From Mya arenaria (Eukaryota; Mollusca; Bivalvia; Myida; Myidae): a stretch of 64,000 nt of DNA. Each line of letters starts with the position of its first letter. The first letter of the stretch is position 1. Location of the stretch: NCBI RefSeq assembly GCF_026914265.1, contig NC_069124.1, forward strand, positions 92,700,566 to 92,764,565, in the 5' to 3' direction. Under the pieces are notes generated by a model. That model searched no databases. It saw only the letters and a program-made list of their open reading frames with translations, and was not told the origin of the DNA. Position numbers and translations under genes: made by a program. Positions 16,886 to 61,643 of the stretch are shown piece after piece.

Positions 16886-16922
16886 ACCCATGCTTTGCTT
16901 GTTCCACCATCTTGGATTTTCT

Positions 16923-33600: not shown

Positions 33601-36600
33601 AGATACAAAAACACTCTAATGCTACTTCTTATGACTTCTTACAATCATTTTAGTTCACATTACAAATGAAAGCAGAGTTATGATGTCTGCCCGTTTTATA
33701 CATCTCTTTAAAATAAGATCACTGAATGTGTCAGCGCTATGTACCTCTGAGTTTCCTTGAGGACGCAGTTAAGGTAGCCTAGTTTATCCAGAGTCTCATG
33801 TGTCAATGGCTGCGTGGGGTCAGCGCACACTTCAAGGACCTCCTCCCGAGCCCGTGTCTGGATATCTGGGTATGAAGCTAGAAGGAGCAATGCCCAAGTC
33901 AACGTCACACTGGTTGTCTGTGAATATTTCATTTTGGTGTAAGCATTGCAAGATTTTGCCAATTATACTCCTCCTGTCTAATCAAATCATCTTCAGAGTG
34001 AAATCTAAGTTTAAAGGCACAAATATCTCCATTAGTATGTAAAACAGTACTAAATAAGCACCTCAGATAAACAAGGGGGATAACTCAACATGGCCTAGAG
34101 TGATCATTTTGTCATTACAAATAATTCCAAACTTCCATGACAATATTTTGAAAGAGTCCTAACGAAGGTCCACATTAAGGTCTGCATATCTAAGGCAAGA
34201 ATGATATCATTGTTATGACACTACCTTGACATTTTCAAAAAGCAACAACAGCAAGCTCAATTTTTGAAGAGGGAAGTGTTATTTTTATCATTTATCAGTA
34301 ATAACAAACTAGGTGAATACAAATTTATACAAATATACATTGTAATGCTACATCCAATGACTTTGACTAGGCTTAGAATTCCCTGTCTTCTACAAGTTCA
34401 TGACTGACATATGCCCTTACATCAAACCCAGCGAACATGATTCCTGTGACGTTTTGAAACACCAGGTTGTCCGGAAGTGATTGGCCGTCCTCGTCTCGTG
34501 CAAGAACAAGCAAGGAAAGGAAGTCCTTTACTGCAGCTGAAACCACACAGCTTATAGAAAGACACTTAAGTAACAATTGTCTTTCAGCTCTTTCATTTCT
34601 TAATATGGGTAGGATTAATATATATCTTTTTAAATATTTAATTGAATTTATATATTTTAGTTAACATTATTCTATATACTGGTTGTCACAGTATTATGCA
34701 ATGTTAATCCGCCGCACAACTTGACCATTACCTGTATTTTCACAGCCATCCCCATAATACCGTTCCTGTATTTTCACAGCCATCCCCATACAGTTCCTGT
34801 ATTTTCTCAGCCATCCCCATACTGTACCTGTATTTTCACAACCATCCCCATACTGTTCCTGTATTTTCACAGCCATCCCCATACTGTACCTGTATTTTCA
34901 CAACCATCCCCATACTGTACCTGTATTTTCACAGCCATCCCCATACTGTTCCTGTATTTTACGGCCATCCCCATACTGTTCCTGTATGTTACGGCCATCC
35001 CCATACTGTTCCTGTATTTTCACAGCCATCCCCATACAGTTCCTGTATTTTAAGGCCATCCCCATACTGTTCCTGTATTTTCACAGCCATCCCCATACAG
35101 TTCCTGTATTTTCACAGCCATCCCCATACTGTACCTGTATTTTCACAGCCATCCCCATACTGTTCCTGTATTTTTACAGCCATCCCCATACTGTACCTGT
35201 ATTTTTACAGCCATCCCCATACAGTTCCTGTATTTTCACAGCCATCCCCATACTGTACCTGTATTTTTACAGCCATCCCCATACTGGACCTGCAATATCA
35301 CAGCCATCCCAATACTGTACCTGCAATATCACAGCCATCCCCATACTGTACCTGCAATATCACAGCCATCCCCATACCTTACTTGTATTTTCACAGCCAT
35401 TCCCATACTGTTCCTGTATTTTCACAGCCATCCCCATACTGTACCTGTATTTTTACAGCCATCCCCATACTGGACCTGCAATATCACAGCCATCCCCATA
35501 CTGTACCTGCAATATCACAGCCATCCCCATACCTTACCTGTATTTTCACAGCCATTCCCATACTAAACCTGTATTTTCACAGCCATCCCCATACTGTTTC
35601 CTATTGTCCTTGACAATTACCTGTATTTTCACAGTCATCCCCATACTGTACCTGTATTTTCACAGCCATCCCTATACTGTACCTGTATTTTCACAGCAAT
35701 CCCCATACTGTACCTGTATTTTCACAGCCATCCCCATACTGTACCTGTATTTTCACAGCCATCCCAATACTGTACCTGTATTTTCACAGCCATCCCCATA
35801 CTGTACCTGTTTTTTCACAGCCATCCCTATACTGTACCTGTATTTTCACAGCAATCCCCATACTGTACCTGTTTTTCACAGCAATCCCCATACTGTACCT
35901 GTATTTTCACAGCCATCCCAATAATGTACCTGTATTTTCACAGCCATCCCCATACTGCACCTGTATTTTCACAGCCATCCCTATACTGTACCTGTATTTT
36001 CACAGCCATCCCCATACTGTACCTGTTTTTTCACAGCCATCCCAATAATGTACCTGTATTTTCACAGTCATCCCCATACTGTACCTGTATTTTCACAGCC
36101 ATCCCTATACTGTACCTGTATTTTCACAGCAATCCCCATACTGTACCTGTATTTTCACAGCCATCCCAATAATGTACCTGTATTTTCACAGCCATCCCAA
36201 TAATGTACCTGTATTTTCACAGCCATCCCAATAATGTACCTGTATTTTCACAGTCATCCCCATACTGTACCTGTATTTTCACAGACATCCCTATACTGTA
36301 CCTGTTTTTTCACAGCAATCCCCATACTGTACCTGTATTTTCACAGCCATCCCAATAATGTACCTGTATTTTCACAGTCATCCCCATACTGTACCTGTAT
36401 TTTCACAGACATCCCTATACTGTACCTGTATTTTCACAGCAATCCCCATACTGTACCTGTATTTTCACAGCCATCCCAATAATGTACCTGTATTTTCACA
36501 GCAATCCCAATAATGTACCTATATTTTCACAGCCATCCCAATAATGTACCTGTATTTTCACAGCAATCCCCATACTGTACCTGTATTTTCACAGCCATCC

Positions 36601-39600
36601 CTATAATGTACCTGTATTTTCACAGCCATCCCAATAATGTACCTGTATTTTCACAGCAATCCCAATAATGTACCTGTATTTTCACAGCCATCCCAATAAT
36701 GTACCTGTATTTTCACAGCCATCCCAATAATGTACCTGTATTTTCACAGCCATCCCCATACTGTACCTGTTTTTTCACAGCCATCCCTATACTGTACCTG
36801 TATTTTCACAGCAATCCCCATACTGTACCTGTTTTTCACAGCAATCCCCATACTGTACCTGTATTTTCACAGCCATCCCAATAATGTACCTGTATTTTCA
36901 CAGCCATCCCAATAATGTACCTGTATTTTCACAGCCATCCCAATACTGTTGCCTCTTGGCCTGTATTCTCTCCTTGATCAGACTGATTATGTACTTTTCA
37001 TCCTCCCAGCGTTGTCTGTTTGCAGCAAACGGCAAGTGGTAATAGAATGGAATGAATGATGAACTGATCCTGAAACAAGAAACATCAGGTATCCTGTATA
37101 GTCACCAGTAACCAGTTACCAGTATAGTCACCAGTAACCAGTTACCAGTATAGTCACCAGTAACCAGTTACCAGTATAGTCACCAGTAACCAGTTACCAG
37201 TATAGTCACCAGTAACCAGTTACCAGTATAGTCACCAGTAACCAGTTACCAGTAAAGTCACCAGTAACCAGTTACCAGTATAGTCACCAGTAACCAGTTA
37301 CCAGTATAGTCACCAGTAACCAGTTACCAGTATAGTCACCAGTAACCAGTTACCAGTATAGTCACCAGTAACCAGTTACCAGTATAGTCACCAGTAACCA
37401 GTTACCAGTATAGTCACCAGTAACCAGTTACCAGTATAGTCACCAGTAACCAGTTACCAGTATAGTCACCAGTAACCAGTAAAGTCACCAGTAACCAGTT
37501 ACCAGTATAGTCACCAGTAACCAGTTACCAGTATAGTCACCAGTAACCAGTTACCAGTATAGTCACCAGTAACCAGTTACCAGTATAGTCACCAGTAACC
37601 AGTTACCAGTATAGTCACCAGTAACCAGTTACCAGTATAGTCACCAGTAACCAGTTACCAGTATAGTCACCAGTAACCAGTTACCAGTATAGTCACCAGT
37701 AACCAGTTACCAGTAAAGTCACCAGTAATAAATACAAATAAACTTTTGAAATCCTCTATTTTCATTTGCAGCAGCTGTTAAGTAATTTTTAAATACAGCA
37801 GGGTTCTCACTTTCCCATATTTGACAGTCCCTGGATTCACACTTTAATATTAAACAAAGATATATGTACTGTAATATTTACAGTCTTCAACTCAGATACA
37901 ATACCCGGTAATATATCAGCTGGGTTTCAAAGGTGCACAATTCAGGTTGATACATTTCTTTTTTTAATTATAATGCATTATAATGTTTAACTCATTGACT
38001 TTAATGATAACAACACAAAAAAAGCATATGATTTAGGTACAGATAAAAAATATTTGCCTTTATAAATGTCTTTTTTTTAATTAATAGCTACGGAGCCACC
38101 AATTCCCCAGTTAAAATACCACCAACATATCATTCTTTTTTATCTGTAAGGTACCTTAATCATATCATTTTGGTTTTGTTTTGATCATTAAAGTCAAATG
38201 ACTTGAAACAGGATAATGCATAATTTTTTAATTTTTTTTCTTCGCATCAACCTATATTGTGCGCCTTTAAATTTCACTAATTCAAACTATACATGTAATA
38301 CATTTCACTAGCAAATTAAACAGAGCACATACGTTCTGCCCCCAACCTGGCGAAGATAGCGAGTGAAGATTTTCACCCCAGCTGTGTCCCCACTTCCTAT
38401 GGCATGAATGTTGTAGTCAAGGCCAGTAATACATACTGTATCTAGAGTCTGTAAAAACAGAATAATATAGATACAAATAGTTGCCATTTTATATATCACA
38501 GACAGCCCACTTGAATCTCTTGTTATAACTGAAACCTGAAGCCCTGATACAGCATGCAAGCTCCTTATTGTTAAAATGACCAAGTGTATGAACTCTTAAA
38601 AAGGTTGAAAATATGGAAAAACAGCTTTCTGACCCTTGACACAACAACCTCTTGCCCAAAATGTATCCTACAATTCTGGTCATGAAGTCCTGCACATTGA
38701 TCTGTACTGGTTGGTTGCCTGCTTGTCTGCACTCCTCCAACCACAGCGACACCATTGAATGAGCCTTGTCCTCAAACACTGGTAACATGTCTGGAAAAAA
38801 ACACCATCATTTGTTGACCTCCTATAAACATAACCAACTCCAAACATAATCATTTGTTGACCTCCTATAAACATAACCAATCCAAATGCAAGTTTTCTTT
38901 CGATCCGCTACTTAGTTATACTAAACACATTAAAAAACAGTTTATAATTTCTGAATGATTATAGGTGTTGGATGGATGCAAGGTATCACTCCAAAGGTCA
39001 AATTTCAGCAGGTACTTCTATCTGAGTACAAAATATCATCCGCGAGAACAAACACTAATATAATTTTTATACTCATCTCTTTAACTTGTGATGAAAGCTG
39101 ATAACTTACAGACATTTCCTTGGAAGAAGTGTTTTTGTCCATAATGAACAGCCATAATATATCCATTTTGTGTAGAGAAAATTTGATGTTCATATTAAAT
39201 AATCCAGAGATGACTATGACCTGACCTTTGGTTATTTCAATATTTTGCTCTGATTTGATTGGCAGCACGTCACTTAACCAATGGTTTAGGACGTTAAATC
39301 TACCCTTTATTCTTTTGTTGATAATCGTTCATTAACAACTACAGAAAATTGTATTTGTTTTTAATTAGGATGAATAAAACATATAAAGTTAAAATATAAC
39401 GATTAGCGCGTTTCATGGAATTTGCTCGCATTCCCTCCTACATTCATACAACATGAAGAAAACAAAAAGATCTATCCTGGAGTTTCCCTGTTGAATTATT
39501 TGAATCTAATAATAAATTTATAATTTATGATGGCAAACTAAATGGCTGAGACATTCATGGTTATTTGACCCTGCTATACCTACTCTGTAGCACATTTATG

Positions 39601-42600
39601 CTAAAGGCTGGGTTGAGCAGTTTCCTCATGCTGTGGTGGACATCCCCGCTCAGGAAAAACAGAGCCTTGCCCATCAGCTGGATAAATGGGCTGTGAAAGG
39701 GACACAAGTTCTGTGTGACAATCATACTCCCCCAGAAAATACAGTGATGAGTACATGTATATATAATAAAATATTGTACAGAATTTTTTATTTATTTGTC
39801 TTAATACAGGTGTTTTATATTCATGTTACGAAATCTATAGTATTTTCTAAACAGTAAAACTAACAGTCATTTGGATATTGTTATGACATCATTGTTTATT
39901 TAATTGCTGCACTCTGAATGGACAAGCAGGACGCAATTTGACCAAAGCTTAAAATATTGGCTATTCCTTCTAACAGAAATTAAAGGTCAATCATATAAAA
40001 TCTGAATTTTATCTGAATTTTTATATATGTTTAATTGAAATCAAAATATACAGTGAAAAATATAAATATAAGGCATATTTTTTGTTTGTTTGATTCTAGC
40101 TTCATATCCCCCCAAAATAGGGAAGGTAGGTCAGATTTGTTTTATTAAGCAAATTGTTTCTTAAGATTTTTCTGTTACCACAAACTATAAATTATATCCT
40201 GAAGAATATCAGTACAATTAGTATAAGTATCACTTGTATTTTTAAAACCAAAACCAGCGAAAACACTTCATTTTTAACTTTTGAAAACAAAATTCAAGCA
40301 AAAATTATTTCTCAATGCAATAAAAGTTTCAGAGTCAGGGCAAAAAAAATATGGTACGTCAGGAAACCTGAAACAAATATTTCCTTGTACACCTAAGGAT
40401 TGATTAGTATTTTTGTGTTCATACAGTATGAACACTAGGGAGAGATTTTGCAAGTTTTTCATGAAATGCTAATAAGCTTCATGGATTTTCAAAATCACAC
40501 CAAAGGGTTTGTACTGCATGAATGCAAGAAGATTACTATTCAATCCTTCATTATTGTACAATGATTTGTTAATGTCTTACGTTTTGGGTAAAACTCGGAC
40601 ATAATTCTTCTCATTTGTAATCATAACATGGCGAAAAACCTTTGGGTCTGCAGTCAGAATTCTTTCTTTTCCACCAAAGTAATAGTAACGAATTGTAAGA
40701 CTTTTACATTGCTTTATCCATCTGAAATGATACAAGTTCTTGTAAATAAAACAAAGATATGACAATAAAGTGTGTTGCTATCAATTAATATTGAAGAAAT
40801 TAATGTAAAAAGTAACTGTAAGTGTGAAAATAATTGCACAAGAACAGATGCAATTTATTATACCATTTAGCAGGTGCAAACATAACTGACAACTGAAGAT
40901 ATACGGTAAGAAATGCTGAAGACAACTGTGAACACAACTGACAGAAATAGACATGACAGCTGAATATAAACCAGTATACATGCTTTGCAGCTGTAGAAGT
41001 AGCTAACAGCTGTATACATACCTGACAGCAGAATACATACCTGACAGCAGATGACATACCTGAAAGCTGTGGACATAAACAGTAACTGTAGACACAACTA
41101 GTAGATGTATACATACCTGATGGGTGAACAACCAAATGACAGCTGTAAAAACACTTGGCAGCTTAAGACTTACCTGACAGCAGACTACCTGCTGATAACT
41201 GAAAAGAGATATACACTACAATTGTAGATGTACCTGCCTACAGATGACTTGTCCGAAATCTGTAAACATACCTGACAGCTGATGACATACCTATCTGCTG
41301 ACAACAATCACATGTCTGCCAACTGTACACATTCACGTCGACGTATCTGCCTACTTATAGCATGCCTGAAAGTGTTACACATACCTGACAACTGTACACA
41401 TAAATTGCAGCTGTAGACACACCAGTCAACTATAGACATACCTGATAGCTGTAGACACACCAGTCAACTATAGACATAACTGATAGCTGTAGACACACCA
41501 GTCAACTATAGACATACCTGATAGCTGTAGACACACCAGTCAACAATAGTCATACCTGATAGCTGTAGACACACCAGTCAACTATAGACATACCTGATAG
41601 CTGTAGACACACCAGTCAACTATAGACATAACTGATAGCTGTAGACACACCAGTCAACTATAGACATACCTGATAGCTGTAGACACACCAGTCAACTATA
41701 GACATAACTGATAGTTGTAGATACACCAGTCAACTATAGACGTACATGATAGCTGTGGACACACCAGTCAACTATAGACATAACTGATAGCTGTAGACAC
41801 ATCAGTCAACTATAGACGTACATGATAGCTGTAGACACACCAGTCAACTATAGACATAACTGATAGCTGTGGACACACCAGTCAACTATAGACATAACTG
41901 ATAGCTGTGGACACACCAGTCAACTACAGACATAACTGATAGCTGTGGACACACCAGTCAACTACAGACATAACTGATAGCTGTAGACACACCAGTCAAC
42001 TACAGACATAACTGATAGCTGTGGACACACCAGTCAACTATAGACATAACTGATAGCTGTAGACACACCAGTCAACTATAGACATAACTGATAGCTGTAG
42101 ACACACCAGTCAACTATAGACATAACTGATAGCTGTGGACACACCAGTCAACTACAGACATAACTGATAGCTGTAGACACACCAGTCAACTATAGACATA
42201 ACTGATAGCTGTAGACACACCAGTCAACTACAGACATAACTGATAGCTGTAGACACACCAGTCAACTATAGACATAACTGATAGCTGTGGACACACCAGT
42301 CAACTACAGACATAACTGATAGCTGTAGACACACCAGTCAACTATAGACATAACTGATAGCTGTGGACACATCAGTCAACTACAGACATAACTGATAGCT
42401 GTGGACACACCAGTCAACTACAGACATAACTGATAGCTGTAGACAAACCAGTCAACTATAGACATAACTGATAGCTGTAAACATAACTGATGGCTGAAGA
42501 CATAACTGATAGCTGTAAACATAACTGATAGCTGTGGACATACCTGATAGCTGTAAACATAACTGATAGCTGTAAACATAACTTATAGCTGTGGACATAA

Positions 42601-45268
42601 CTGATAGCTGTGGACATAACTGATAGCTGTAAACATAACTGATAGCTGTAAACATAACTGATAGCTGTGGACATAACTGATAGCTGTGGACATACCTGAT
42701 AGCTGTAAACATAACTGATAGCTGTGGACATAACTGATAGCTGTGGACATAACTGATAGCTGTAAACATAACTGATAGCTGTAAACATAACTGATAGCTG
42801 TAAACATAACTGATAGCTGTGGACATAACTGATAGCTGTGGACATACCTGATAGCTGTAAACATAACTGATAGCTGTAAACATAACTGATAGCTGTGGAC
42901 ATAACTGATAGCTGTGGACATAACTGATAGCTGTAAACATAACTGATAGCTGTGGACATAACTGATAGCTGTAGACATAACTGATAGCTGTAAACATAAC
43001 TGGTAGCTGTAAACATAACTGATAGCTGTAAACATAACTGATAGCTGTGGACATAACTGATAGCTGTAAACATAACTGATAGCTGTGGACATACCTGATA
43101 GCTGTGGACATACCTCACAGCTGTATACTTAAATAATACACTAGACATACCAGGCAGTTATTGGCATAACTGAGAGCTGTTGACATGAATGATGGCTGAG
43201 ACATACCTGACATCTGTATACTTAAATAACAGCTACAGACATACCTGATAGTTACATGCATAGAACTGTTTACACACCTGACAGCTGAATACAAAGTGAA
43301 AGCTGTAGACAAATCTGACAGCTGTAGACATCACTGATGTCTGCAGACTAATCTGATAGCTTAATACATAACTGGCAGCTGTGGAAATACCTGACAGCTG
43401 TAGATATAACTGATGTTTTTTTTTTACTTTTGATTCGGATTTTTTTCAGAAGGCTGGGAAAAATATCATATATTTTGCTTTGGGAAATGGTCCAATAGTT
43501 GGACCTGTGGGTACTATAGAAAAAGCCCTGATATATAACTAAAAGCTGTAGAAAAAACTGCCAGCTGGAATTAAACCTGAAAGCTGTATTCATAACTTAA
43601 AGCTGTAGATATATCTGACAATTGTATACTTAAATAACAGCTGTAGACATACCAGATATCTGTAGACATAGCTAACATCTGTTGACATAACTGATACCTG
43701 TAGACATAACTGACGGCTGTAGACATGCATAATAGTTGTATACATAACAAACAGCTGTACACATACCTGATAGCTCTAGACATAACTGATGGCTGTAGAC
43801 ATAACAAACAGCTGTACACATACCTGATAGCTTTAGTCATAACTGGCAGCTGTAGAAATACCTGACAGCTGTAGACATAACTGATGGCTGTAGACATATC
43901 ACATAGGTGTAGAAATAACTGACAGCTGTAGACATACCCGACGGCTGCAGACATAACTGATAGCTGTAGACATACCTAATTGATGTAGACATAACTGATG
44001 GCTGTAGACATATCACATAGGTGTAGAAATAACTGACAGCTGTAGACATACCCGACAGCTGCAGACATAACTGATAGCTGTAGACATACATAATTGATGT
44101 AGGCATAACTGATGGCTATAGACATATCACATAGGTGTAGAAATAACTGACAGCTGAAGACAAACCTGACGGCTGCAGACATAAATGATAGCTGTAGACA
44201 TACCTAATTGATGTAGACATAACTGATGGCTGTAGACATATCACATAGGTGTAGAAATACCTGATAGCTGTAAACATAACTGATGGCTGTAGAGACATAC
44301 CTGATAGCTGTAGACATAACTGATAGCTGTAGACATATCTGATAGCTGTAGACATAACTGATAGCTGTAGACATATCTGATAGCTGTAGACATAACTGAT
44401 AGCTGTAGACATCACTGATGGCTGTAGACATAACTGATAGTTGTAGACATAACTGATAGCTGTAGACATCGCTGATAGCAATAGACATAACTGATAACTG
44501 TAGACATACCTGATGGCTGTAGACATATCTGATAGCTGTATACATATATGTGACAGCTATAAACACATCTGACAACTGTAGACATACCTGATGGCTGTAG
44601 ACATTGCTTCTCCACTAAGAGCATCTAGCATGTTACCAACCAGAGGTCTGTATGGCAACCCGGGTAACTGGTGAATGTACAATACAGATTTCGAGGATAT
44701 ATTTTACTATGGTTTATATAATTATAAGTGTCAGAATTATTATAGATTTAAAAGAGTTTAAATATCAACAAAATGAAAATGAATGTAACAAAGCAATGCA
44801 TGATTGCCTCTGCTTCATTTCTCACATTTTCTGAGCTACTCAATTGATTGAGGTTGTCATTCTAAAGCTAAATTAATTTCCTACATAGAAATGTTCATTT
44901 TTACTTGTCTATGGCTATATATTTGGTTTTATGCAACAGCATAACTTCTTTTGGGGTATTATCCAAGCAGATGGCAAAAGGTATTTGATATTAAAAAATC
45001 TACTCTTTAATGAGTAAGATCATCACCTGGGCTTATGATTAAATAACTTTGAAAAAAGAATTGGTCGAAAATTCTATGAAAGTGGCTACACTTGTACTTG
45101 AATGATGCTATTTATGAGAACCTTTACCTTTCTCAGAGGTGACAGGTAAACACATATGAGGTTGAAGTAAACCCATCTTGTAACCAGTGCTGTCACAACA
45201 ATGATCACTAAATCCCGCCAGCCCACACTTTGTATGATCCACTGTAGATTAACATGGAGACTCCACAT
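30640..45268 (-). CDS. Microsomal cytochrome P450, 11 exons, 510 residues
   Basis: Exons in transcription order: 45268-45128, 44667-44588, 40721-40581, 39690-39584, 38790-38672, 38448-38333, 37069-36921, 34536-34421, 33917-33745, 32121-32008 and 30916-30640. All introns are GT-AG, every phase agrees, and the exons sum to 1533 bases. The protein starts with a membrane anchor (LVIIVVTALVTRWVYF) and a proline-rich hinge (LPGLPYRPLVGNM). It has the I-helix oxygen motif AGFDTT (320-325), the K-helix E378-T-Q-R381, PERF (432-435) and the haem loop FITGPYMCIG with Cys455. Class II P450s use NADPH-P450 reductase in the endoplasmic reticulum to hydroxylate small molecules. I cannot place the family (CYP3/CYP4/CYP46-like features). 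Odd: Tyr453 replaces the usual haem-loop Arg, and His139 replaces the C-helix Trp. Four introns carry MITEs and three carry minisatellites. Confidence 0.92.
30998..31335. mobile_element. MITE, TTAAAGCTGCAC family, copy 2
   Basis: The left end TTAAAGCTGCACTCACACAG and the right end, whose reverse complement begins TTAAAGCTTCACTCTCACAG, form an inverted repeat. It lies in the last intron of the P450 gene, 80 bp from the acceptor of exon 11. Confidence 0.7.
32254..32943. mobile_element. Tc1/mariner-type MITE in P450 intron 9
   Basis: The ends CAGTAAAACTGCGATCG (left) and, as reverse complement, CAGTAAAACTGCGGTCG (right) are flanked by TA on both sides (32252-32253 and 32944-32945). Inner parts also pair loosely (CCTCGAGGGAACC against GAGGGTTCTCGG). 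A TA duplication with CAG-starting ends fits a mariner-like non-autonomous element. No coding sequence. Confidence 0.7.
34731..36946 (-). repeat. 31-bp minisatellite built on the P450 exon 7 donor site
   Basis: About 71 tandem units of 31 bp fill more than 90 percent of P450 intron 7. In the gene's sense each unit contains GGCTGTGAAAATACAG followed by GTAC, that is, the last 16 bases of exon 7 plus its GT donor. The exon reads KRQQYWDGCENT and ends ACA G at 36921, and the next exon (starts 34536) continues in phase. Almost every unit keeps CAG/GTAC, so dozens of equivalent 5' splice sites are on offer. The farthest copy (34732) reads CAG/GTAATG, a stronger donor. Variants TGCAATATC and AATAATG are clustered, pointing to local amplification. 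The array is open in all three plus-strand frames only because of its composition. Confidence 0.9.
37092..37730. repeat. 26-bp minisatellite just upstream of P450 exon 7 acceptor
   Basis: About 24 nearly identical units contain ATAGTCACCAGTAACCAGTT on the plus strand. In the gene's sense the units read GGTAACTGGTTACTGGTGAC. The array ends about 20 bases before the AG acceptor (37071-37070). Each unit contains two branch-point-like cores (TAAC and TGAC). Homogeneity is high, with only A/T variants (AGTAAAGTC) and one shortened unit near 37470. Confidence 0.9.
37929..38268. mobile_element. MITE, AAAGGYGCACAA family, copy 2
   Basis: The left end AAAGGTGCACAATTCAGGTT and the reverse complement of the right end, AAAGGCGCACAATATAGGTT, are paired. 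It lies in P450 intron 6, 65 bp from the exon 6 donor. It shares interior sequence with 30090-30359. Confidence 0.7.
40860..44606 (-). repeat. 19-bp minisatellite built on the P450 exon 2 donor site
   Basis: Nearly all of P450 intron 2 consists of 19-bp units. In the gene's sense the founder is the exon 2 end itself: ATGTCTACAGCCATCAG then GT, with the true donor at 44588/44587. Units therefore carry TACAGCTATCAG followed by GTATG or, more often, TTATG, so only a subset keeps the donor GT. Three zones are visible: heterogeneous monomers (42470-44606), a higher-order 38-bp dimer with CACACCAGTCAACTATAGAC (about 41390-42470) and a degenerate zone (40860-41390). A foreign block interrupts at about 43414-43540. 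The acceptor of exon 3 (40722) lies past the degenerate end. Confidence 0.88.
43414..43540. other. Foreign block interrupting the 19-bp array
   Basis: The sequence from a T run (43414) to about 43540 does not follow the 19-bp period, while the flanking units do. It is probably a small insertion. No ends or duplications could be defined. Confidence 0.5.
44668..45127. other. P450 intron 1
   Basis: AT-rich intron between the membrane-anchor exon and exon 2. It is free of the minisatellite, which begins exactly at the exon 2 donor on the other side. Confidence 0.7.
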
Positions 45269-46257: not shown

Positions 46258-47240
46258 CTAGTCAAGTCAAGTCAAGTCAAGTCAAGTCAATATTTATTTA
46301 TTGTCGGGTACTATCATCAACAGTTTAACAAAAGCTATGAATAGCTTTTGACCGACATTATAAATAAATAGCATAATTTATGTAACTAATATATCACACA
46401 CATCAGTTCATGCAAATAATAATATTCAGTATGTACACTTGAAACAAATAAATAATTCTTATAGTAAAATCACATAGACATATTTGGCAGTTGAAAGACA
46501 TTAGACTATATATAGAATGTAGGTAGATTAGCATAATTTTTAGCATAAGTTAATCGAAAATACGAATCACAAGGTAATACGACAATGCATTTAGCATGGG
46601 AAATAAAACAAAAGAAGTCACAATTAATTAACATGATTTAAATCAAAGACACATTGAAAGAGACCAGCTGCCTAGGCAGTCTAAGCTCGCGAGGTCCCAT
46701 CCAACATATCTTTGATTAAGACATTTTACAGCATGTTATATGATAGCATTCTTATATGCAAAATGAGCATTTGCAGTTATCTCCGCTCCATGCCCGGACT
46801 AAACTCTTGAAATGATTAAAATTAGTTTCTTCCCTAAAATGTTGTGGAAGGGTGATCCAGAGTTTAGGGGCACCGGAGCGGAAAGAATTGCACCCATATG
46901 TTGTAGTTCTTACAGTTGGGATAGCAGCCATCATCTTATATCTAAAGTTAAAGGAATGTTCTTTTATTACCACTAAGTCATGTAGATACATTGGACCCTG
47001 CTTGTGGATAATTTTATGGGTTTCTATAGCAATGGACCTTAACCTTCTAAGCTTGAGAGTTGGCAACATTGATTTAGATAAAAGTGTTGGGTAATCAGAT
47101 GTGTAATCATTGTACTGTATATGAATCTGAGGGCTCGTTCTTGTACTTTTTCAAGCTTCTTAGTATGCACCTCGCCACAAACATGCCAAGTAATTGGACA
47201 GAAATTGAAACTTGATAGTCCACACCTTGTCTTTAGAAAT
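46258..47240 (-). mobile_element. 5'-truncated non-LTR retrotransposon (reverse transcriptase C-terminus)
   Basis: The minus strand encodes CPITWHVCGEVHTKKLEK, QERALRFIY, then after a frame change near 47115 LPTLKLRRLRSIAIETHKI, VRTTTYGCNSFRSGAPKLW and FNHFKSLVRAW, ending GDNCKCSFC near 46760. This is the far C-terminus of the reverse transcriptase ORF of CR1/L2/Jockey-like LINEs, where the motifs LR.RR...ET.KI, RT..YG..S.....P..WN.LP and FK..L are usual. About 500 bp of 3' untranslated sequence follows and ends in a (TTGAC)n tail at 46260-46290, a short terminal repeat of the kind these elements use for priming. The element is 5' truncated and inactive. Confidence 0.75.
46260..46292. repeat. 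(TCAAG)n tail of the LINE
   Basis: Six consecutive TCAAG units on the plus strand (TTGAC in the LINE sense) form the 3' terminus of the truncated LINE. Confidence 0.75.
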
Positions 47241-48001
47241 ATTTAATTATTGATGATTTCCTTCACAGAGGTCTGTTCCAGCTCTGTAATTTATGTAGAC
47301 TTTAAACTGTTAAACATGAAAAACAAACTAATAATGTCAATTTGCAAAAACGGGAGGTAATCTGTTAAATTTCTTATTGGGAATTTTCACTATAACGCCC
47401 CTTTGTTTCAAAATTGTTATATTTTGAATGTAAACAATTGGAATTTTGTTAGTATTTCAGGTAGAAAATTATGTATTTTACAGTATGATTAAATCAAATC
47501 ATGTAAGTAGAAATTTCTTCATGTGTAAAGTCTAATCCATCTTACTTTTTGTAATTGTCTGCATGAATATAATAAGAAATGGCTTTTGGAAATATTCAAT
47601 ATGTAACACTTTTTAAAAAAAAAAACTAGTTGAGAATCAGTTTCCAATGTAAAGCAGTCTTTTCACTTACTTTTTTTAGACCTTCTGAAAGAAGGTACTG
47701 CAATTCAATTCTACAGTATGGCTACTTAGCAATCTAAAGCTGAAGTTCACAAGGAGACGTGTAAGTAATCATTATTAATATTTTATGTTTCATGTTTATT
47801 TTTCCATTTGTACACAATTTCACAGGTGGGGTGTCATCACGCACACTGAATTGCGCATGTAAACCTAATTTGCATATCTGATGTAATGTGTGACACCAAC
47901 AAGGTAAACAGATCCCTACAGAGAAAAGCACGCTTGACTGTGAAGAGGTCCACTGGTCTTTATAAACAGTAAATTCTCAATCCACACAGAACCTGTGCTT
48001 T
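47241..48001. other. No gene seen
   Basis: AT-rich spacer between the LINE fragment and the hAT-like element. The last eight bases (TGTGCTTT, 47994-48001) are the left target duplication of the latter. Confidence 0.4.
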
Positions 48002-49823
48002 CAGGGTTCCCACACTACCGGGAAAACGAGAAAAAGTCGGGAATATCGAAAAGTCTGTTCCCAGTCGTGAAAATGCCTTGAATTTTGCAATTATAGGTTA
48101 AAATCGCGAAAAAGCCAGGAAAAGTAATATTTAAAGTTCGAACTTTTTTGGGTACGAAACTAGGTAAAAGTAAGTACTCTTGATCATCTAGACGCTTGCA
48201 TCTGACACTGTTCTGTATTGAATTGACTCTGATCAGAGTGTCTGAATGATCGAGACTAAGAAGGTTTCCGTTACCACATGCAAGCGTTTATTTGTCATAG
48301 TAGCTGTGTCTGCACTGCCGTCTGCATTTAAAAGTTATTTTAAGTTAAAACGAGAAATTGGCCGCAGTTTGTCGGGATTCGCTTTATATACGCTGTCAGT
48401 AAGAATCGTGGGTGCAATATACAACGATATTTTAAATCTTCAGTATGCTAATGATCATGGATAATTAGCGATCCTTGCATTCATCGAAAGATATTTTAAT
48501 ACGTGAAATTGGCCTAAGTTCATTAAAATAAACTTGAGATACGCTGTCAATAACATACATGAATGTTAATTGCAATGATCTTACTAGTCTGCGAAGTGCT
48601 ACACAGCCTGACAAATATTTGCTATATTCAAGTGTGAATCTATGAATGATCATGCCTTTAGACTGACCTTGCTCCTATTTATAGACATTGAGAAGACCAC
48701 AGTTCTTTGGCCAGTAGACATCATAATAGTTTTAAACTTGTGCAAAAAAGTCATTTATTTTGCATTTTCACCCATGGATTGATGAATATTGATGTTCAGA
48801 TATAGCTGAATTGCATGCTCACTGATGCAAGTAGATTTTTTAAAGAGAGTTAAACTCTTTTAAAATGACACTGGATGTTATGAGTTCAAGTTGTTCAATA
48901 AATGTTTAAAGCTTCCCTCTCATGGCTTGAACAAATTGACAAGTTTTTTACTTTTGTCTTGGAACAAGCCAATATATTGGCAAAAATCCATGAAAACCAA
49001 TTATTCAAGATTGCTGGCAGAAAGATAGATACCAGATATTTATATTTAAGATCAAAAATTGGTGTTTTATACATATTTATTTAACCGTTAATAAACCATA
49101 ATACATAAATTTTCGAACATAAATATGAAAATCAGCGATCTGATTTTTTGTTGGCAATCTTTTATCGTTGGTTTGCAGATATTTACGTCAAAAGTTGATC
49201 TATCTCAGACAAGAAATGAAATAAGTTGTTAAAATAGTATCTATAAGAGTGCAGCTTTAAAAAATGTTCAGAAAGTAAGTTTTTGTTCAGAGAGTAAAAC
49301 TTTTTTTAATGTGATATTTGATTATATTTATCTTTAGCATGCATTTATCCACCAATTACGAAAATTGGTATTGTATACGGAGATCAACCAGCACCAAACC
49401 ATGCTGACTGATCAGGGTCCACACTGTTCTATGCACAAATAGTAGGTAAGCCTTTAAGTTTCTAAGTAGCAAATACAAATAGCCTAGACCCTGATCATGC
49501 CAGCTGATCCGTGTCTACACTGTTCACAGAGGCCAACCGTATTCAGCATGCTAAAGGTTCATCATGTTGTTCAATAAATGTCTAAGAAGTTCAGAAAGTG
49601 AAAGGTTTTGTTTTTGAGAATAACACCCTTTGAAAATGACATTTGATGTTTTTTAACAAGTTGTTAATAAATGTTAAATATGGCAAATAAGTTATTTGAC
49701 TGAAATGTTTCGTTGTAATAACTGTGAAAAAGGTTGAGAGAAAGTCTGGAATTTGCAAAAAAACAAACTTGAAAAAGTCTGGAAAAAGTCTGGTATTTTA
49801 CTTGCAGAAAAATGTGAAAACCC
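48002..49823. mobile_element. hAT-like non-autonomous element, 8-bp duplication
   Basis: The left end begins CAGGGTTCCCACA. The reverse complement of the right end begins CAGGGTTTTCACA if the two bases shared with the flank are counted. TGTGCTTT flanks both sides (47994-48001 and 49824-49831). CAGGG-type ends and an 8-bp duplication are typical of hAT. Subterminal regions repeat AAAAAGTCTGG/GAAAAAGTCGGG-like phrases. The interior (1.8 kb) shows no transposase. It contains the right half of a TTAAAGCTGCAC-family MITE near 49090-49262. The exact right border is ambiguous by two bases. Confidence 0.65.
49085..49262. mobile_element. TTAAAGCTGCAC-family MITE fragment, copy 3
   Basis: The segment resembles the right half of 30998-31335 (TTTTCGAAC..., GATCTGATTTTTTGTT, GGTTTGCAGATATTTAC) and ends AGAGTGCAGCTTTAA. 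The matching left end is not evident. Confidence 0.5.
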
Positions 49824-49831
49824 TGTGCTTT

Positions 49832-50542
49832 GCTAATTTGCATATTACCAACCAAGTAAACATACATACTATGAACATACTTCTGTCTATTACGGAATGT
49901 TATACTATCAACACACATCTGCCTACAGCAGACCGTAACACTAATAATAACTACAAGGTTTTCCTAAAATGACTATCACAAACGATAATTATTGTGTACA
50001 TATTTGCCAACAGTATTGTCATGCTACATGTATTTTTATGTCCACATTCACTCAGATGTAAACAATCACAAGTTTTTCTCCGAAATGAATTAAAATATCA
50101 TAAAGAAATAATTTGACATTAAAGAAATATTGATTCCAAATATTTGTTTTTTGTATATATATGCTTAAAATTAAACAATATTTTCTTTTTATAGACTATT
50201 ATTTAGTTAATTAGTAAACAGATAAAATAATTTTTTTTTTTGATAAGCACCACAAAACCAATTTGTTGGAAACTGCTTCTCATCACCAGCAAATCAGAAT
50301 GGTGTTAGTACCCCCTTGGCGCCCCTATTATATATACTGTGTATAATGTCACATGTGTAAAAAAATAATCACATCATTTAGTATGGATATAAAAACACAA
50401 AAATAATTCAATAAAAACCTTTAAAATTGTTGGAAACTACTTCTCAACCAGTACAGGTGTTCGGTGCATTGACCTCTGACAATTTCCCATCCGCTGTCTT
50501 ATCTTAAATTTAATGTATTTAAGCAATTCTTAATTACTGCAT
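49832..50542. other. No gene seen
   Basis: AT-rich spacer between the hAT-like element and the 36-bp minisatellite. No motif recognised. Confidence 0.4.
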
Positions 50543-50937
50543 TATGTCCTTGGCCACGAAAATAGGCAATCAGGGAAATATGTCCTTGGCCACGAAAATA
50601 GGCAATCAGGGAAATATGTCCCTGGCCATGAAAATAGGCAATCAGGGAAATATGTCCCTGGCCACGAAAATAGGCAATCAGGGAAATATGTCCCTGGCCA
50701 CGAAAATAGGCAATCAGGGAAATATGTCCCTGGCCATGAAAATAGGCAATCAGGGAAATATGTCCCTGGCCACGAAAATAGGCAATCAGGGAAATATGTC
50801 CCTGGCCACGAAAATAGGCAATCAGGGAAATATGTCCTTGGCCACAAAATAGGCAATCAGGGAAATATGTCCTTGGCCACAAAAATAGGCAATCAGGAAA
50901 ATATGTCCTTGGCCACGAAAATAGGCAATCAGGGAAA
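50543..50937. repeat. 36-bp minisatellite, about 11 copies
   Basis: Units contain GGCCACGAAAATAGGCAATC and CAGGGAAATATGTCC, with C/T and G/A variants alternating. Because 36 is divisible by three and no stop occurs, both strands stay open. Each unit contains a short inverted pair (TCCCTG and CAGGGA). It lies between the P450 and MYND genes, about 630 bp upstream of the first visible MYND exon. Confidence 0.9.
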
Positions 50938-51589
50938 TGTTTTTCTTATTTGGATAATATATAGGTTTATGTTGACTGTATAACGCCACAACTATAAACT
51001 CTAAAAGTCCAATGCTAAAAATCAAATACTATACCTATAGTATATATGATTAGCTTAAATTCCTTTTCATTTCCACAAAAAAAAATCATATACACACCAG
51101 CCAATAATACAGTTTTTTATAATGTTTTTTAAATAACCATGTTTTCATTATTTACATCGACAATTTGTGTAGGCAAATATTTTAACAGGAAGGCAATGAC
51201 TAGCAACTGCCCATCTTTTTATGCCTAATATTAGTCTTTGATTTAAATTTAAGTGTCGTTTTTTCCTGAAGAAACATTTATTCAAAGGGTCAGTAAAGTG
51301 TTTCCTATCAATTTTAGATTTGAATAGCTTCTGATTTCATAAAACTCACTGGATAAATGGCCGCGCTTTATCTGTATCAGCTATTTTTTGCATGGCTTTG
51401 TATTTCTCAGCAGTCAGGTAATTTTCCCAATTTGGAAGGTGCAGGATGGAAAATTTCCCCTCAAATCACCGAGTCTTAAGCAGAACTAGAGTGTAAACCT
51501 CTGACAAAAATATGTCATTTTTTTACCTATATGAAGATTTATTCTCATTACTTTGTTTTCAGAAACCACACATACTGGCCAACACAATA

Positions 51590-54500
51590 ATGGCGTGTGA
51601 CTCAACAAGGTTGTCCAGATGCAGTTTGTGCGGCAAGTCTGGGACAGGCATGATTAAATGGTACCTTTACCATGTTGATGAATTTATTAAAGAGCCTAAT
51701 TCATGTTTTGTGTGTGAACATAGAGCTTCTTTCAAGGATCAAACATCATCAAACTTCAAATTAGTGCTCTTTTGCTAATAATTATTAAGAAAATAGAACA
51801 GAAATGCTCTGATCTGCAGAAAAGCTTAAGTAATACTATTTAAAATTGATTTTTTTTAGGCTTCAATTCACAAAATTATGTTCAAATGAGTGTTTGGCAG
51901 TTGCTGTTTGCTGCTTGTTCCTAATAGTAAGGTAAATTGAAACAAGATAAAAGATATTTTCCAACATGATCTGTAAGTGAGTCCCTTCAAAAGCAGTATT
52001 TAACGAATCAAATAGCTTAAAAATCGTTATATACGCTTTAGAACGTACATGTCTTTAACCTATCTATCTGTTTGATTAAAACTGAGCCACAGAAAATTGT
52101 CTTGCAGTAACAACTTGCTTTAAGCTTTTCACAGTGCTCCTGAAACACTAGTTAAATATTTATGAATGTATGCAGTCTGTTTGACATAAGGTGCGGTGTT
52201 GGCAGTAATATGCCCTCCTTGTCATGGGAAATGCTGTTAATAGCATTGATGACCTTAGTTAGGTAATTTCTGTTGTGATGAACATCAAATACAACAGAGA
52301 AAGAAAAAAACAACACTTTATAAAGCAACAGAATTTATTTACTAACAGTTATACAACAATAATTTCAAATAAGTAATGCTAAAATTTAAATATCTTCAAT
52401 AAAGAATCATGTCCAAGTTCCAAAAGTTCACAAAATAACTTTACTAATCCTGGTATGTTTCATGTTCTCAGTTAAATTCATAATCACATGAAATATTGAA
52501 TACTGACAGTAATACATTATATTAGCACAATTGAAGTCCAATAACTCTTCAGAATGATTGCCATGAAAGTTTGAAATGTAGTCCTCAAATAAGAATTTAA
52601 TTAAATATAATTTGTTTTAACCTTGTTAACACAAGGCTTATATTGGTACATGTGTTAGGGACAGCACTGGTTAAAGCCTACTATCACAAATGAACTGGCA
52701 TATTAACCTTCATTTGATCAAGAATGAAGTTGGGTTTTTTGTGTGTAAGGGGTCATTTGAGGCAGTGTTGTATTTTTTGTAGCAGGTCATGTGAGGTTGA
52801 GAGGTACTGTGTTGTGCTTTGTAGCAGGTCATGTGAGGTTGAGTGGTACTGTGTTGTGCTTTGTAGCAGGTCATGTGATGTTGAGTGGTACTGTGTTGTG
52901 CTTTGTAGCAGGTCATGTGAGGTTGAGTGGTACTGTGTCGTGCTTTGTAACAGGTCATGTGAAGTTGAGTTGTACTGTGTCGTGCTTTGTAACAGGTCAT
53001 GTGAGGTTGAGTGGTACTGTGTCGTGCTTTGTAGCAGGTCATGTGAGGTTGAGTGGTACTGTGTCGTGCTTTGTAACAGGTCATGTGAGGTTGAGTGGTG
53101 CTGTGTCGTGCTTTGTAACAGGTCATGTGAGGTTGAGTGGTACTGTGTCTTGCTTTGTAGCAGGTCATGTGAGGTTGAGTGGTACTGTGTCTTGCTTTGT
53201 AGCAGGTCATCTAAGGTTGAGTGGTACTGTGTCTTGCTTTGTAGCAGGTCATGTGAGGTTGATTGGTGCTGTGTAGTGCTTTGTAGCAGGTCATGCGAGG
53301 TTGAGTGGTACTGTGTTGTGCTTTGTAGCAGGTCATGTGAGGTTGAGTGGTACTGTGTCGTGCTTTGTAACAGGTCATGTGAGGTTGAGTGGTACTGTGT
53401 CGTGCTTTGTAACAGGTCATGTGAGGTTGAGTTGTACTGTGTCGTGCTTTGTAACAGGTCATGTGAGGTTGAGTGGTACTGTGTCGTGCTTTGTAGCAGG
53501 TCATGTGAGGTTGAGTGGTACTGTGTCGTGCTTTGTAACAGGTTATGTGAGGTTGAGTGGTGCTGTGTCGTGCTTTGTAACAGGTCATGTGAGGTTGAGT
53601 GGTACTGTGTCTTGCTTTGTAGCAGGTCATGTGAGGTTGGGTGGTACTGTGTCGTGCTTTGTAGCAGGTCATCAAAGGTTGAGTGGTACTGTGTCTTGCT
53701 TTGTAGCAGGTCATGTGAGGTTGAGTGGTACCGTGTGGTGCTTTGTAACAGGTCATGTGAGGTTGAGTGGTACTGTGTAGTGCTTTGTAACAGGTCATGT
53801 GAGGTTGAGTGGTGCTGTGTCGTGCTTTGTAACAGGTCATGTGAGGTTGAGTGGTACTGTGTCTTGCTTTGTAGCAGGTCATGTGAGGTTGAGTGGTACT
53901 GTGTCTTGCTTTGTAGCAGGTCATCTAAGGTTGAGTGGTACTGTGTCTTGCTTTGTAGCAGGTCATGTGAGGTTGAGTGGTGCTGTGTAGTGCTTTGTAG
54001 CAGGTCATGCGAGGTTGAGTGGTACTGTGTTGTGCTTTGTAGAAGGTCATGTGAGGTTGAGTGGTACTGTGTCGTGCTTTGTAACAGGTCATGTGAGGTT
54101 GAGTGGTACTGTGTCGTGCTTTGTAACAGGTCATGTGAAGTTGAGTTGTACTGTGTCGTGCTTTGTAACAGGTTATGTGAGGTTGAGTGGTGCTGTGTCG
54201 TGCTTTGTAACAGGTCATGTGAGGTTGAGTGGTACTGTGTCTTGCTTTGTAGCAGGTCATGTGAGGTTGGGTGGTACTGTGTCTTGCTTTGTAGCAGGTC
54301 ATCTAAGGTTGAGTGGTACTGTGTCTTGCTTTGTAGCAGGTCATGTGAGGTTGAGTGGTACCGTGTGGTGCTTTGTAACAGGTCATGTGAGGTTGAGTGG
54401 TACTGTGTCTTGCTTTGTAGCAGGTCATGTGAGGTTGAGTGGTACCGTGTCGTGCTTTGTAGTAGGTCATGTGAGGTTGAGTGGTACTGTGTCTTGCTTT

Positions 54501-57500
54501 GTAGCAGGTCATGTGAGGTTGAGTGGTGCTGTGTCGTGCTTTGTAGCTGGTCATGTGAGGTTGAGTGGTGCTGTGTCGTGCTTTGTACCAGGTCATGTTG
54601 GGTTGAGTGGTACTGTGTAGTGCTTTGTAGCAGGTCATGTGGGGTTGAGTGGTACCGTGTCGTGCTTTGTAGCAGGTCATGTGAGGTTGAGTGGTACTGA
54701 CGTGTCATGCTTTGTAGAAGGTCATGAGAGGTTGAGAGGTACTGTGTCTTGCTTTGTAGCAGGTCATGTGAGGTTGAGTGGTACTGTGTTGTTCTTTGTA
54801 GCAGGTCATGTGAGGTTGAGTGGTACTTTGTCGTGCTTTGTAGCAGGTCATGTGAGGTTGAGTGGTACTGTGTCGTGCTTTGTAGCTGGTCATGTGAGGT
54901 TGAGTGGTGCTGTGTCGTGCTTTGTAGCAGGTCATGTGAGGTTGAGTGGTACTGTGTCGTGCTTTGTAACAGGTCATGTGAGGTTGAGTGGTGCTGTGTC
55001 GTGCTTTGTAGCAGGCCATGTGAGGTTGAGTGGTACTGTGTCGTGCTTTGTAGCAGGTCATGTGAGGTTGAGTGGTACTGTGTCGTGCTTTGTAGCAGGT
55101 CATGTGAGGTTGAGTGGTACTGTGTCGTGCTTTGTAGCAGGTCATGTGAGGTTGAGTGGTGCTGTTTCGTGCTTTGTAGCAGGTCATGTAGGGTTGAGTG
55201 GTACTGTGTAGTGCTTTGTAGCCGGTCATGTGGGGTTGAGTGGTACCGTGTCGTGCTTTGTAACAGGTCATGTGAGGTTGAGTGGTACTGTGTCGTGCTT
55301 TGTAACAGGTCATGTGAGGTTGAGTGGTGCTGTGTTGTGCTTTGTAGCTGGTCATGTGAGGTTGAGTGGTGCTGTGTCGTGCTTTGTAGCAGGCCATGTG
55401 AGGTTGAGTGGTACTGTGTCGTTCTTTGTAGCAGGTCATGTGAGGTTGAGTGTTAGTGTGTCGTGCTTTGTAGCAGGTCATGTGAGGTTGAGTGGTGCTG
55501 TGTCGTGCTTTGTAGCTGGTCATGTGAGGTTGAGTGGTGCTGTGTCGTGCTTTGTAGCAGGTCATGTAGGGTTGAGTGGTACTGTGTAGTGCTTTGTAGC
55601 AGGTCATGTTGGGTTGAGTGGTACCGTGTCATGCTTTGTAGCAGGTCATGTGAGGTTGAGTGATACTGTGTCTTGCTTTGTAGCAGGTCATCTAAGGTTG
55701 AGTGATACTGTGTCTTGCTTTGTAGCAGGTCATGTGAGGTTGAGTGGTACTGTGTCTTGCTTTGTAGCAGGTCATCTAAGGTTGAGTGATACTGTGTCTT
55801 GCCTTGTAGCAGGTCATGTGAGGTTGAGTGGTACTGTGTCGTGCTTTGTAGCAGGTCATATGAGGTTGAGTGGTACTGTGTCGTGCTTTGTAGCAGGTCA
55901 TGTGAGGTTGAGTGGTACTGTGTCGTGCTTTGTAACAGGTCATGTGAGGTTGAGTGGTACTGTATCGTGCTTTGTAGCAGGTCATGTGAGGTTGAGTGGT
56001 ACTGAGTCGTGCTTTGTAGCAGGTCATGTGAGGTTGAGTGGTACTGTGTCGTGCTATGTAGCATGTCATAAGAGGTTGAGTGGTACTGTGTCGTGCTTTG
56101 TAGCAGGTCATGTGAGGTTGAGTGGTACTGTGTCGTGCTTTGTAGCAGGTCATGTGAGGTTGAGTGGTACTTTGTCGTGCTTTGTAGCAGGTCATGTGAG
56201 GTTGAATTGTGCTGTGTTTTGCTTTGTAGCAGGTCATGTGGGGTTGAGTGGTACTGTGTAGTGCTTTGTAGCAGGTCATGTGAGGTTGAGTGGTACTGTG
56301 TAGTGCTTTGTAGCAGGTCATGTGGGGTTGAGTGGTACTGTGTCGTGCTTTGTAGCAGGTCATGTGAGGTTGAGTGGTACTTTGGCGTGCTTTGTAGCAG
56401 GTCATGTGAGGTTGAATTGTGCTGTGTTTTGCTTTGTAGCAGGTCATGTGAGGCAGTTTGGTACTGCAGTGAGAGTTGCAGGATGACAGACTGGAATCAG
56501 ACAGGTGCCCTCATTAACTACAGCCACAGGATCTGGTGTGAGCGATTCAAAATCTATATGGACTTTGGGGCTGATATGGCTAAGCTTCCCTTTACATTCA
56601 TGAATGGTAAGTTTTGGGAGAATCATTGAGTTATTTTAGTTAATATACACACTTTTTTAACTGTATGTATGGGAAGTGTAGGTGGATGTATTAATTGATA
56701 TAATCCAATACAATACACAATTTGAAAGCAAATGTATAAAGCCAGCTTGTGTTAACTTGTTCTTTATTTAGATGATAGTTTCAACTCTGTTCTCTTTCAG
56801 AGACTAGTGACCCATTTAGATCATGGTTTCAACTCTGTTCTCTTTCAGAGACTAGTGACCCATTTAGATGATAGTTTCAACTCTGTTCTCTTTCAGAGAC
56901 TAGTGACCCAGATTTTAATGTTGAGCAATTTTTGCGTGCACAAGGTGTATATCAGCAAGGGGCCTGGAAAGTTGAGGAGATGGGTGTGATGCAGCAGCAG
57001 ACCTCAGAGAGGCAAGGTAATAGGAGCCAAAGTAGTTTGGAGCAATACAAGAGGACAGGCTGGATAGGTAAAAGGGGCATACACATATGTGTTGTTAGGT
57101 ATAATGCTGGTGGACAGGTCGGTGACCTCTGGTAGACAAGGAAATTAGGGGCCAAAATAGTTAGTAGGGGAACAAGCCTAAGACCTGAGAAAGGCAGGAT
57201 TGACAGGGGCCTAAACAGTTGAATTGAGGGACAGGCCAAAGACCTCAGAGAGGAAAGGTGGGTAGGGGCCTAGATAGTTAGGTGTAATGCATGGACCTTA
57301 AAAGTGTAGCAAATTTGCCAAATATGTCATTTTTTTAAAAGGTGGAGTGCTGCACTAATGGGGAAACGCTGCTAATTTTGAAACAATATTTTAATTTCAA
57401 TCAATTATGAATGTGAATGTATATGGATTTATAGTTTCATTGTAAACGGAACATAGTTTCATGCAATCGAAGTCATTTTGGCAGTTGAACAGTCATCAGA

Positions 57501-61612: not shown

Positions 61613-61643
<31 letters not shown>

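Follow-up and report, generated by a model that had tools for sequence, protein, structure and literature searches.

Two neighbouring genes and their splice junctions

The stretch analysed here (the window) comprises 64,000 nucleotides of the genome of the softshell clam Mya arenaria, a bivalve mollusc, and carries a CYP4-like P450 gene and a neighbouring ZMYND15-like gene (below, the MYND gene). In these two genes five minisatellite arrays cross exon-intron junctions, and every array repeats an exon edge together with the adjoining splice site. Spliced models were built by hand from the window sequence, using splice signals and reading frame, and both proteins matched public M. arenaria proteins: the MYND protein was 99% identical to P0001 ('ZMY15-like protein [Mya arenaria]'; 2 substitutions in 295 aa), and the P450 differed from P0004 (LOC128226847, Mya arenaria) by 2 substitutions in 510 aa. 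None of these substitutions fell at an array junction, and their small number would suggest another haplotype or assembly. The two genes and the exons touched by arrays are listed below; here and throughout, a slash within a sequence or between two positions marks a splice junction.

30640..45268, minus strand: CYP4-like P450 gene, 11 coding exons (E0 to E10), 510 aa
45268-45128, minus strand: first P450 exon, E0
44588..44667, minus strand: P450 exon E1, whose final 17 nt form a copy of the 19-bp unit; P0004 and P0006 (Ruditapes) cross AIR/W
36921..37069, minus strand: P450 exon E6; last 29 nt lie inside the 31-bp array; P0004 crosses CENT/AAVKD
51590..63008, plus strand: ZMYND15-like gene, coding exons M1 to M7; P0001 runs on past M7
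56440..56606, plus strand: MYND exon M2, with the zinc finger's second half; the 42-bp array takes in its first 28 nt
56897..57016, plus strand: MYND exon M3, with arrays at both edges

The P450 protein gave a Pfam p450 match at 6e-85, with CYP4B1 as the best match among solved structures, and zf-MYND and MSS51_C were matched in the MYND protein. The two gene models yielded 33 junctions, with GT or AG at every one. The E6 donor (36921/36920), the E1 donor (44588/44587), the M2 acceptor (56439/56440) and the M3 acceptor (56896/56897) each fall within an array of their own. P0004 spans E1/E2 (TAIR/W) and E6/E7 (CENT/AAVKD) exactly as modelled here, and P0006 aligns across both, with a one-residue gap at E6. 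When three public models (P0001, P0004 and P0005) were aligned, all joined their exons at the exon-proximal sites and none held a repeat copy; splice usage is read here from such predicted public proteins, not from RNA reads. An earlier note on this DNA had held the junction assignments to be independent of the arrays, and the public models, together with the conserved protein at E1 and M2, uphold it.

At M2 two candidate acceptors lie three bases apart (TAG/CAG/GTC). The acceptor was placed at TTTGTAG/CAGGTC, as only TAG/CAG yields KCRSCEAVWYCSESC, the first Cys of which is present in P0001, P0002 (Dreissena) and P0003; CAG/GTC was rejected because it would replace this zinc-ligand Cys of CRSC, found in all three proteins. 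The site (56437-56442) is a tandem NAGNAG (TAGCAG), in which use of the second AG would drop the MYND zinc-ligand Cys. In the P450, the haem-binding motif (30640-30916, minus strand) reads FITGPYMCIG, with Tyr at a position where Arg is usual; P0006, P0008 and P0009 are without Arg as well.

Arrays that span splice junctions

Tandem Repeats Finder (TRF) was run on the window, and its 47 rows were reduced to 21 arrays by merging overlapping or adjoining rows and omitting periods 3 and 5 (TTC, AGTCA). All four arrays described in the earlier note were detected (34729-36949, 31 bp x72; 40988-41070 and 41379-44604, 19/38 bp; 52776-56453, 42 bp x87.5; 56766-56910, 48 bp x3), and with the gene models they bear out its claim of units lying across splice junctions. 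Its count was short by one, as a fifth array of ~59 bp at the M3 donor had been missed, and the 19-bp and 42-bp arrays run beyond the bounds given by TRF. The five arrays are:

34729..36949, minus strand: 31-bp array, 72 copies, the first being exon E6's own
40861..44604, minus strand: 19-bp array region, made up in part of 38-bp dimers and interrupted near 43410-43540
52738..56467, plus strand: 42-bp array, in which a degenerate first copy is followed by 88 that bear the acceptor; it takes up 77% of the M1-M2 intron
56766..56910, plus strand: 48-bp array, 3 nearly identical copies; the unit crosses the M3 acceptor (TTTCAG/AGACTAGTGACCC)
56999..57300, plus strand: fifth array, decayed, ~59-bp unit, ~5 copies, the second poorly matched; crosses the M3 donor

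On the coding strand, the 31-bp unit reads TATTGGGATGGCTGTGAAAATACAG/GTACAG, that is, the last 25 nt of E6 and 6 intron nt, and the 19-bp unit reads ATGTCTACAGCCATCAG/GT, the last 17 nt of E1 and GT. The 42-bp unit, TGTCGTGCTTTGTAG/CAGGTCATGTGAGG.....TGGTACTG, joins 15 intron nt ending in TTTGTAG to the first 27 nt of M2; in the 48-bp unit, 13-15 of the 48 nt are exonic. The fifth array, absent from the first TRF listing, has ~18 exon nt per unit, which reads GACCTCAGAGAGGCAAG/GTAATAGG at the M3 donor and continues as GACCTCAGAGAGGCAAG/GTAATAGGAGCC.... Arrays thus occur at donors (E1, E6, M3) and acceptors (M2, M3) alike. The three largest hold ~70 to 150 or more tandem copies, and they fill much of their introns: the E6-E7 intron is 92% 31-bp array, leaving 192 nt, and the E1-E2 intron is 96% 19-bp array region (one interruption included), leaving 139 nt.

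The 19-bp array holds ~146 well preserved copies and ~50 decayed ones, continuing in decayed form down to ~40861 (decayed stretches 41378-40861 and 43574-43112). Wrap-around alignment of 44610-40850 gave 199 rows, 195 of them nearly complete and 185 with at least 12/19 identities; the other 14 were excluded as too short or too diverged. The 12/19 cut-off is lax in the decayed stretches, where ~36% of shuffled rows reach it. Mean identity was 16.2/19 in 44604-43575 (54 rows) and 15.7/19 in 43111-41379 (92 rows), the well preserved stretches; the decayed ones averaged 13.0/19 against a shuffle maximum of ~11.3-11.4, and all four stretches exceeded their 30 shuffles each. In the 42-bp array, the exon M2 copy departs from the unit in one 5-nt block (CAGTT for TTGAG) and in one or two C/T changes on the intron side; the exon's CAGT form recurs in the degenerate copy at the start of the array (~52738-52770).

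The junctions were also scanned directly. Forty-nt windows centred on each of the 33 were compared with the 300 nt on either side. Five junctions stood out, the four already known and the donor of M3; a score as high as that of the M3 donor occurred at 0.7% of 3000 background positions. A second scan placed 80-nt windows at 3000 unmasked positions chosen at random and gave, in the two-gene span, six clusters scoring at least 30, the top one (41) being the M3 donor region. By TRF and the window scans of the two genes, none of the remaining 28 junctions lies inside a repeat. Two repeats come close:

38799..38886, minus strand: 43-bp x2.1 repeat, stopping 9 nt from the E4 acceptor; an edge case, not counted as junction-spanning
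37096..37728, minus strand: 26-bp x24.6 array within the intron, lying 27 nt before the E6 acceptor, with no junction inside

The E4 acceptor scored 54 with an 80-nt window, above all 3000 background positions, and was not high with 40- or 50-nt windows. Amphioxus minisatellites that lie across exon-intron boundaries, described at Adh3 and the globin genes BflGb6 and BflGb9, have been named 'mirages' (available text of PMC3087553). Both close repeats were considered as mirages and were not counted as such, their TRF bounds stopping 9 and 27 nt short of the acceptors.

Direction of copying and growth of the arrays

The residues that the units encode at E1 and M2 are conserved in other bivalves: the E1 edge gives MSTAIR (MTTAIR in Ruditapes), and the M2 edge gives CRSCEAVWYC (CGSCHAVYYC in Dreissena). 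These two exons are therefore older than the arrays, and the arrays are copies of the exon edges; judged by these residues, copying at E1 and M2 ran from exon into intron. By analogy, we infer the same direction at E6 and at both M3 edges.

Long exact repeats were found inside the arrays. The 42-bp array repeats 197 bp at a lag of 714 (17 units), and the 31-bp array repeats 180 bp at a lag of 960 (~31 units); in the 19-bp array 136 bp recur at a lag of 152 (8 units), and the zone of 38-bp dimers there showed a lag-2 identity of 0.95 versus 0.60 at lag 1. These block repeats and the dimer zone point to block-wise unequal exchange or slippage. The copies at the array edges were seen to be diverged, and block repeats inside an array with diverged copies at its edges are likewise the mark of concerted evolution in mirage minisatellites. 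Short matches at the unit ends (ACA/ACAG, where the slash separates alternatives, and ATGT) were seen by eye.

We consider it probable, with good confidence, that the clam arrays are mirage-type minisatellites: short duplications that spanned a junction, were tolerated, and were then enlarged. Each would have begun as one short tandem duplication, by slippage or end joining, that chanced to span a junction. The mRNA would be unaltered as long as the exon-adjacent copy is used, with the extra copies falling within the intron, and for that reason such a duplication would escape the selection that acts against wholly exonic ones. Later growth would have come from unequal exchange or slippage among the copies of an array, until two introns were mostly filled. 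The arrays would have no function of their own, and the surplus sites would be decoys that are either ignored or cause some aberrant splicing.

Overlap with junctions compared with chance

Chance overlap was estimated by treating each array as a one-unit seed placed at random in the 21,475-nt pre-expansion span of the two genes. A junction was contained in 4 of the 11 TRF arrays in this span against 0.456 expected (P 7.0e-4), in 4 of 8 arrays of about three or more copies against 0.347 (P 1.9e-4), and in 3 of 7 arrays of five or more copies against 0.275 (P 1.8e-3). For the whole window the figures were 4 of 21 against 0.396 (P 5.6e-4), an expectation that is a lower bound, the junctions of the left-half gene (open reading frames at 24836-26050, minus strand) being outside the counts; with the six sub-threshold clusters added they were 5 of 17 against 0.92 (P 1.5e-3). 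Within the window, enrichment was therefore 5- to 12-fold, with P from 2e-4 to 2e-3 depending on the arrays counted. The window had, however, been selected for this feature, as one picked from many, and about 13 windows with at least four such arrays would be expected by chance among the 18,750 in the genome (1.2 Gb, a size that we assume) if all were alike. The enrichment is suggestive of a junction-seeking process and is no proof of one. The excess over chance claimed in the earlier note thus held inside the window (4/11 versus 0.46, P 7e-4), whereas the process favouring exon edges that it proposed is not established by one selected window.

Such a process could be mutational, with transcription-linked R-loop breaks or steps in base composition at exon edges seeding arrays genome-wide. 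It would account for the overlap, for exon M3 being arrayed at each edge, and for the two further repeats that end just short of acceptors; it would also agree with the several loci reported in amphioxus, and with the G-richness of the sense strand in three of the five units (skew 0.57, 0.52 and 0.36), as expected of R-loop-prone DNA. The other two units show no G-skew (-0.14 and -0.11), and 28 of the 33 junctions are without a containing repeat (the E4 acceptor being the edge case); both facts, like the choice of window and the chance expectation given above, tell against it. We regard such genome-wide seeding as unlikely, if worth keeping in mind, and it is compatible with the later steps of growth by exchange or slippage set out above.

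State of the surplus splice sites

In the 31-bp array the donor GT was present in 59 of 71 copies, the exon copy included (3 of 74 rows were set aside as incomplete), and in the 19-bp array in 71 of 185, with CAG/GT in 29 of the 185. In the 42-bp array the first AG (TAG) was kept in 66 of 88 copies, the second in 82, and at least one in all 88; if losses were independent, ~1.5 double losses would be expected (22 x 6 / 88). Many copies, though not all, have thus kept their splice signals, as mirages do. When the internal copies were ranked by conservation, the splice dinucleotide had one base among the least conserved positions of the unit (rank 1 of 42, 3 of 31 and 1 of 19) and a well conserved partner base (98-100%) in all three long arrays. 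These ranks come from 86 copies of the 42-bp, 63 of the 31-bp and 141 of the 19-bp unit; excluded were the exon copies, seven 31-bp copies (six with indels and one interrupted) and the most diverged 19-bp stretches. We found no sign that the surplus sites are specially preserved. Nor was loss of decoy sites accepted as proof of selection: the ranks hint at it, but the copies lack independence, each pair has a well conserved second base, and the test was made post hoc.

Reading through beyond the E6 or E1 donor runs into a stop in frame; at these donors the read-through stops alone were used, since steps +3 and beyond (E6) and +2 and beyond (E1) lose register with the true copies. Use of either upstream M3 acceptor gives FR followed by two stops. 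Because read-through or decoy use meets stops, the exon-proximal site alone would be useful at the E6 and E1 donors and the M3 acceptor. At M2 no stop interrupts the MYND frame between the exon and position 56069, where the last in-frame stop lies, so that nine acceptors (56104-56440) give open products, with 14 residues added per copy (four of the products were translated directly). Site strength did not explain use of the exon-proximal M2 acceptor, as its top pyrimidine count (11/15) is common to 25 of the 88 copies, itself included; its pyrimidine run of 4 is found in 84 of the 88.

One scenario is that the arrays are functional, their many usable splice sites varying the protein or its expression, and that at M2 the upstream acceptors add Cys-rich blocks of 14 residues (RSCEVEWYCVVLCS) to the zinc finger. 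The unit lengths of 42 and 48, both multiples of 3, and the nine open acceptors agree with this. Openness is not, however, peculiar to the MYND frame: over the 42-bp array, stops per frame number 8, 8 and 249 on the plus strand and 1, 7 and 87 on the minus strand, and in-frame openness was rejected as a sign of coding because two further frames are no less open. Furthermore, neither 31 nor 19 is a multiple of 3, decoy use in those arrays and in the 48-bp array gives stops, the decoys are not specially preserved, and P0001, P0004 and P0005 are without a repeat copy. A functional role for the arrays is accordingly quite improbable.

Other features of the window

In the M4-M5 intron, two 16-bp arrays (59744-59840 and 60587-60663; TCAAAAGCCCCCCCGT and its reverse complement) point towards each other across ~750 bp and resemble the inverted repeated ends of an element. 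Further to the left, 18863-19490 and 24836-26050 (minus strand) are near-identical copies of a coding region ~6 kb apart; for this region no Pfam match was obtained in the two frames tried, and no homologue at E 0.001 with a joined query. Two large 35-bp arrays of one family occupy 15889-16894, with no gene model nearby. A piece of HTH_Tnp_4 transposase lies at 5884-6384 (plus strand) and a PHD-finger reading frame at 9674-10015 (minus strand), and at 46752-47150 (minus strand) a frame without a Pfam match resembles, by eye, the end of a LINE (long interspersed nuclear element) protein. Miniature inverted-repeat transposable elements that contain tandem repeats, in the clam Donax trunculus, are the subject of a title in the reference list of PMC4732748.

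Discussion

The mirage-type origin proposed above, with tolerated junction-spanning duplications later enlarged, has several observations to contend with. Some four to five junctions were hit in two adjacent genes where 0.46 (TRF) or 0.92 (with sub-threshold clusters) were expected, which tolerance alone leaves unexplained, and the presence of at least one AG in all 88 copies of the 42-bp unit might be taken for retention, though just ~1.5 double losses would be expected under independence. The exon-to-intron direction is also weakly supported at some edges: the E6 edge, YWDGCENT, shares just Y and D with Ruditapes, and both M3 edges are poorly conserved inside the unit.

The founding description of amphioxus mirages is reportedly that of Canestro et al. 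in 2002. PGBD5 and troponin C have since been added to the mirage loci of amphioxus (available text of PMC3902484). In the available text of both amphioxus papers (PMC3087553, PMC3902484), repeats occur at 5' and at 3' splice sites, and many but not all copies keep AG or GT, as in the clam; the units range from 10-72 bp (Adh3) to 150-160 bp (globins). Homogenised clusters, differing boundary copies and regular splicing are reported there, whereas the clam arrays are known from the genome and predicted proteins. The clam differs further in being a bivalve, in its 72, 88 and ~146 or more copies as against 3-6 in BflGb6, in two introns that are almost wholly array, and in having five arrays in two adjacent genes. 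No mirage minisatellite of a mollusc was reported among the matches listed in a literature search, most subscription journals being outside its coverage, and the available text of two mollusc gene-structure papers (PMC4732748, PMC7931591) does not describe exon-edge repeats. The clam arrays are real and striking: they belong to a known kind of minisatellite, of which no report was found for molluscs, and they are unusually large and five in number within two adjacent genes.

A variable number tandem repeat (VNTR) of the human CBS gene is placed at exon 13/intron 13. This 31-bp VNTR (c.1444_1467+7) likewise repeats a donor, by its name with 24 exon and 7 intron nt as against 25 and 6 in the clam; it has 16-21 copies and is polymorphic in people (available text of PMC2630376), and no common sequence or descent is claimed. 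Variable internal tandem repeats in human segmental duplications also lie in some cases at exon-intron boundaries, and novel introns have been proposed from them, but these are recent primate paralogs with units of 30 bp on average x4 (available text of PMC2812944).

Another scenario makes the introns themselves nascent, arising by tandem genomic duplication of an exon segment that bears AGGT. The 96% and 92% of the E1-E2 and E6-E7 introns taken up by array region fit it, the amphioxus authors propose such a path (available text of PMC3087553), and in the RdRp gene of potato, a case of intron gain, the duplicated segment likewise lies across an intron-exon boundary (available text of PMC4974935). 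In the clam, however, no new intron is shown, there are many copies rather than one duplication, and AGGT is not general. The motif is literally present in three units, as the earlier note had pointed out, yet the 31-bp array is the only one in which most copies have it across the junction: in the 19-bp array CAG/GT stands at the junction in the minority counted above, in the 42-bp unit AGGT is exonic and lies 1 nt from the exon start, and the 48-bp unit is without it. Its link to intron gain by tandem duplication is weak. Each intron moreover retains ordinary non-array sequence and a normal splice site at its opposite end, and an array that grew at one end of an old, short intron would fit just as well, leaving nascent introns little chance of being the explanation. 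An artefact of assembly, with repeats collapsed or over-expanded, is very improbable: assemblies often misstate the copy number of minisatellites of 2-4 kb, but the copies here differ by patterned substitutions with long-range block repeats, and the 48-bp array is just 145 bp.

Reiteration of exon edges could be a general mutational route of intron growth in this clam, one that enlarges introns many-fold with copies of their own junctions, runs well above the rate at which minisatellites are born elsewhere in genes, and leaves decoys that decay under selection; we hold this to be doubtful. Were it true, mirages would be widespread and independent of lineage, and not a peculiarity of amphioxus. 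The arrays carry mirages from amphioxus to a mollusc and to far larger sizes, and what was supposed to be a cephalochordate quirk may be widespread. They also offer natural experiments in splicing, in which ~70 to 150 or more copies of a junction compete and the public models use just the exon-proximal one, and they give a testable account of how introns grow at their ends.

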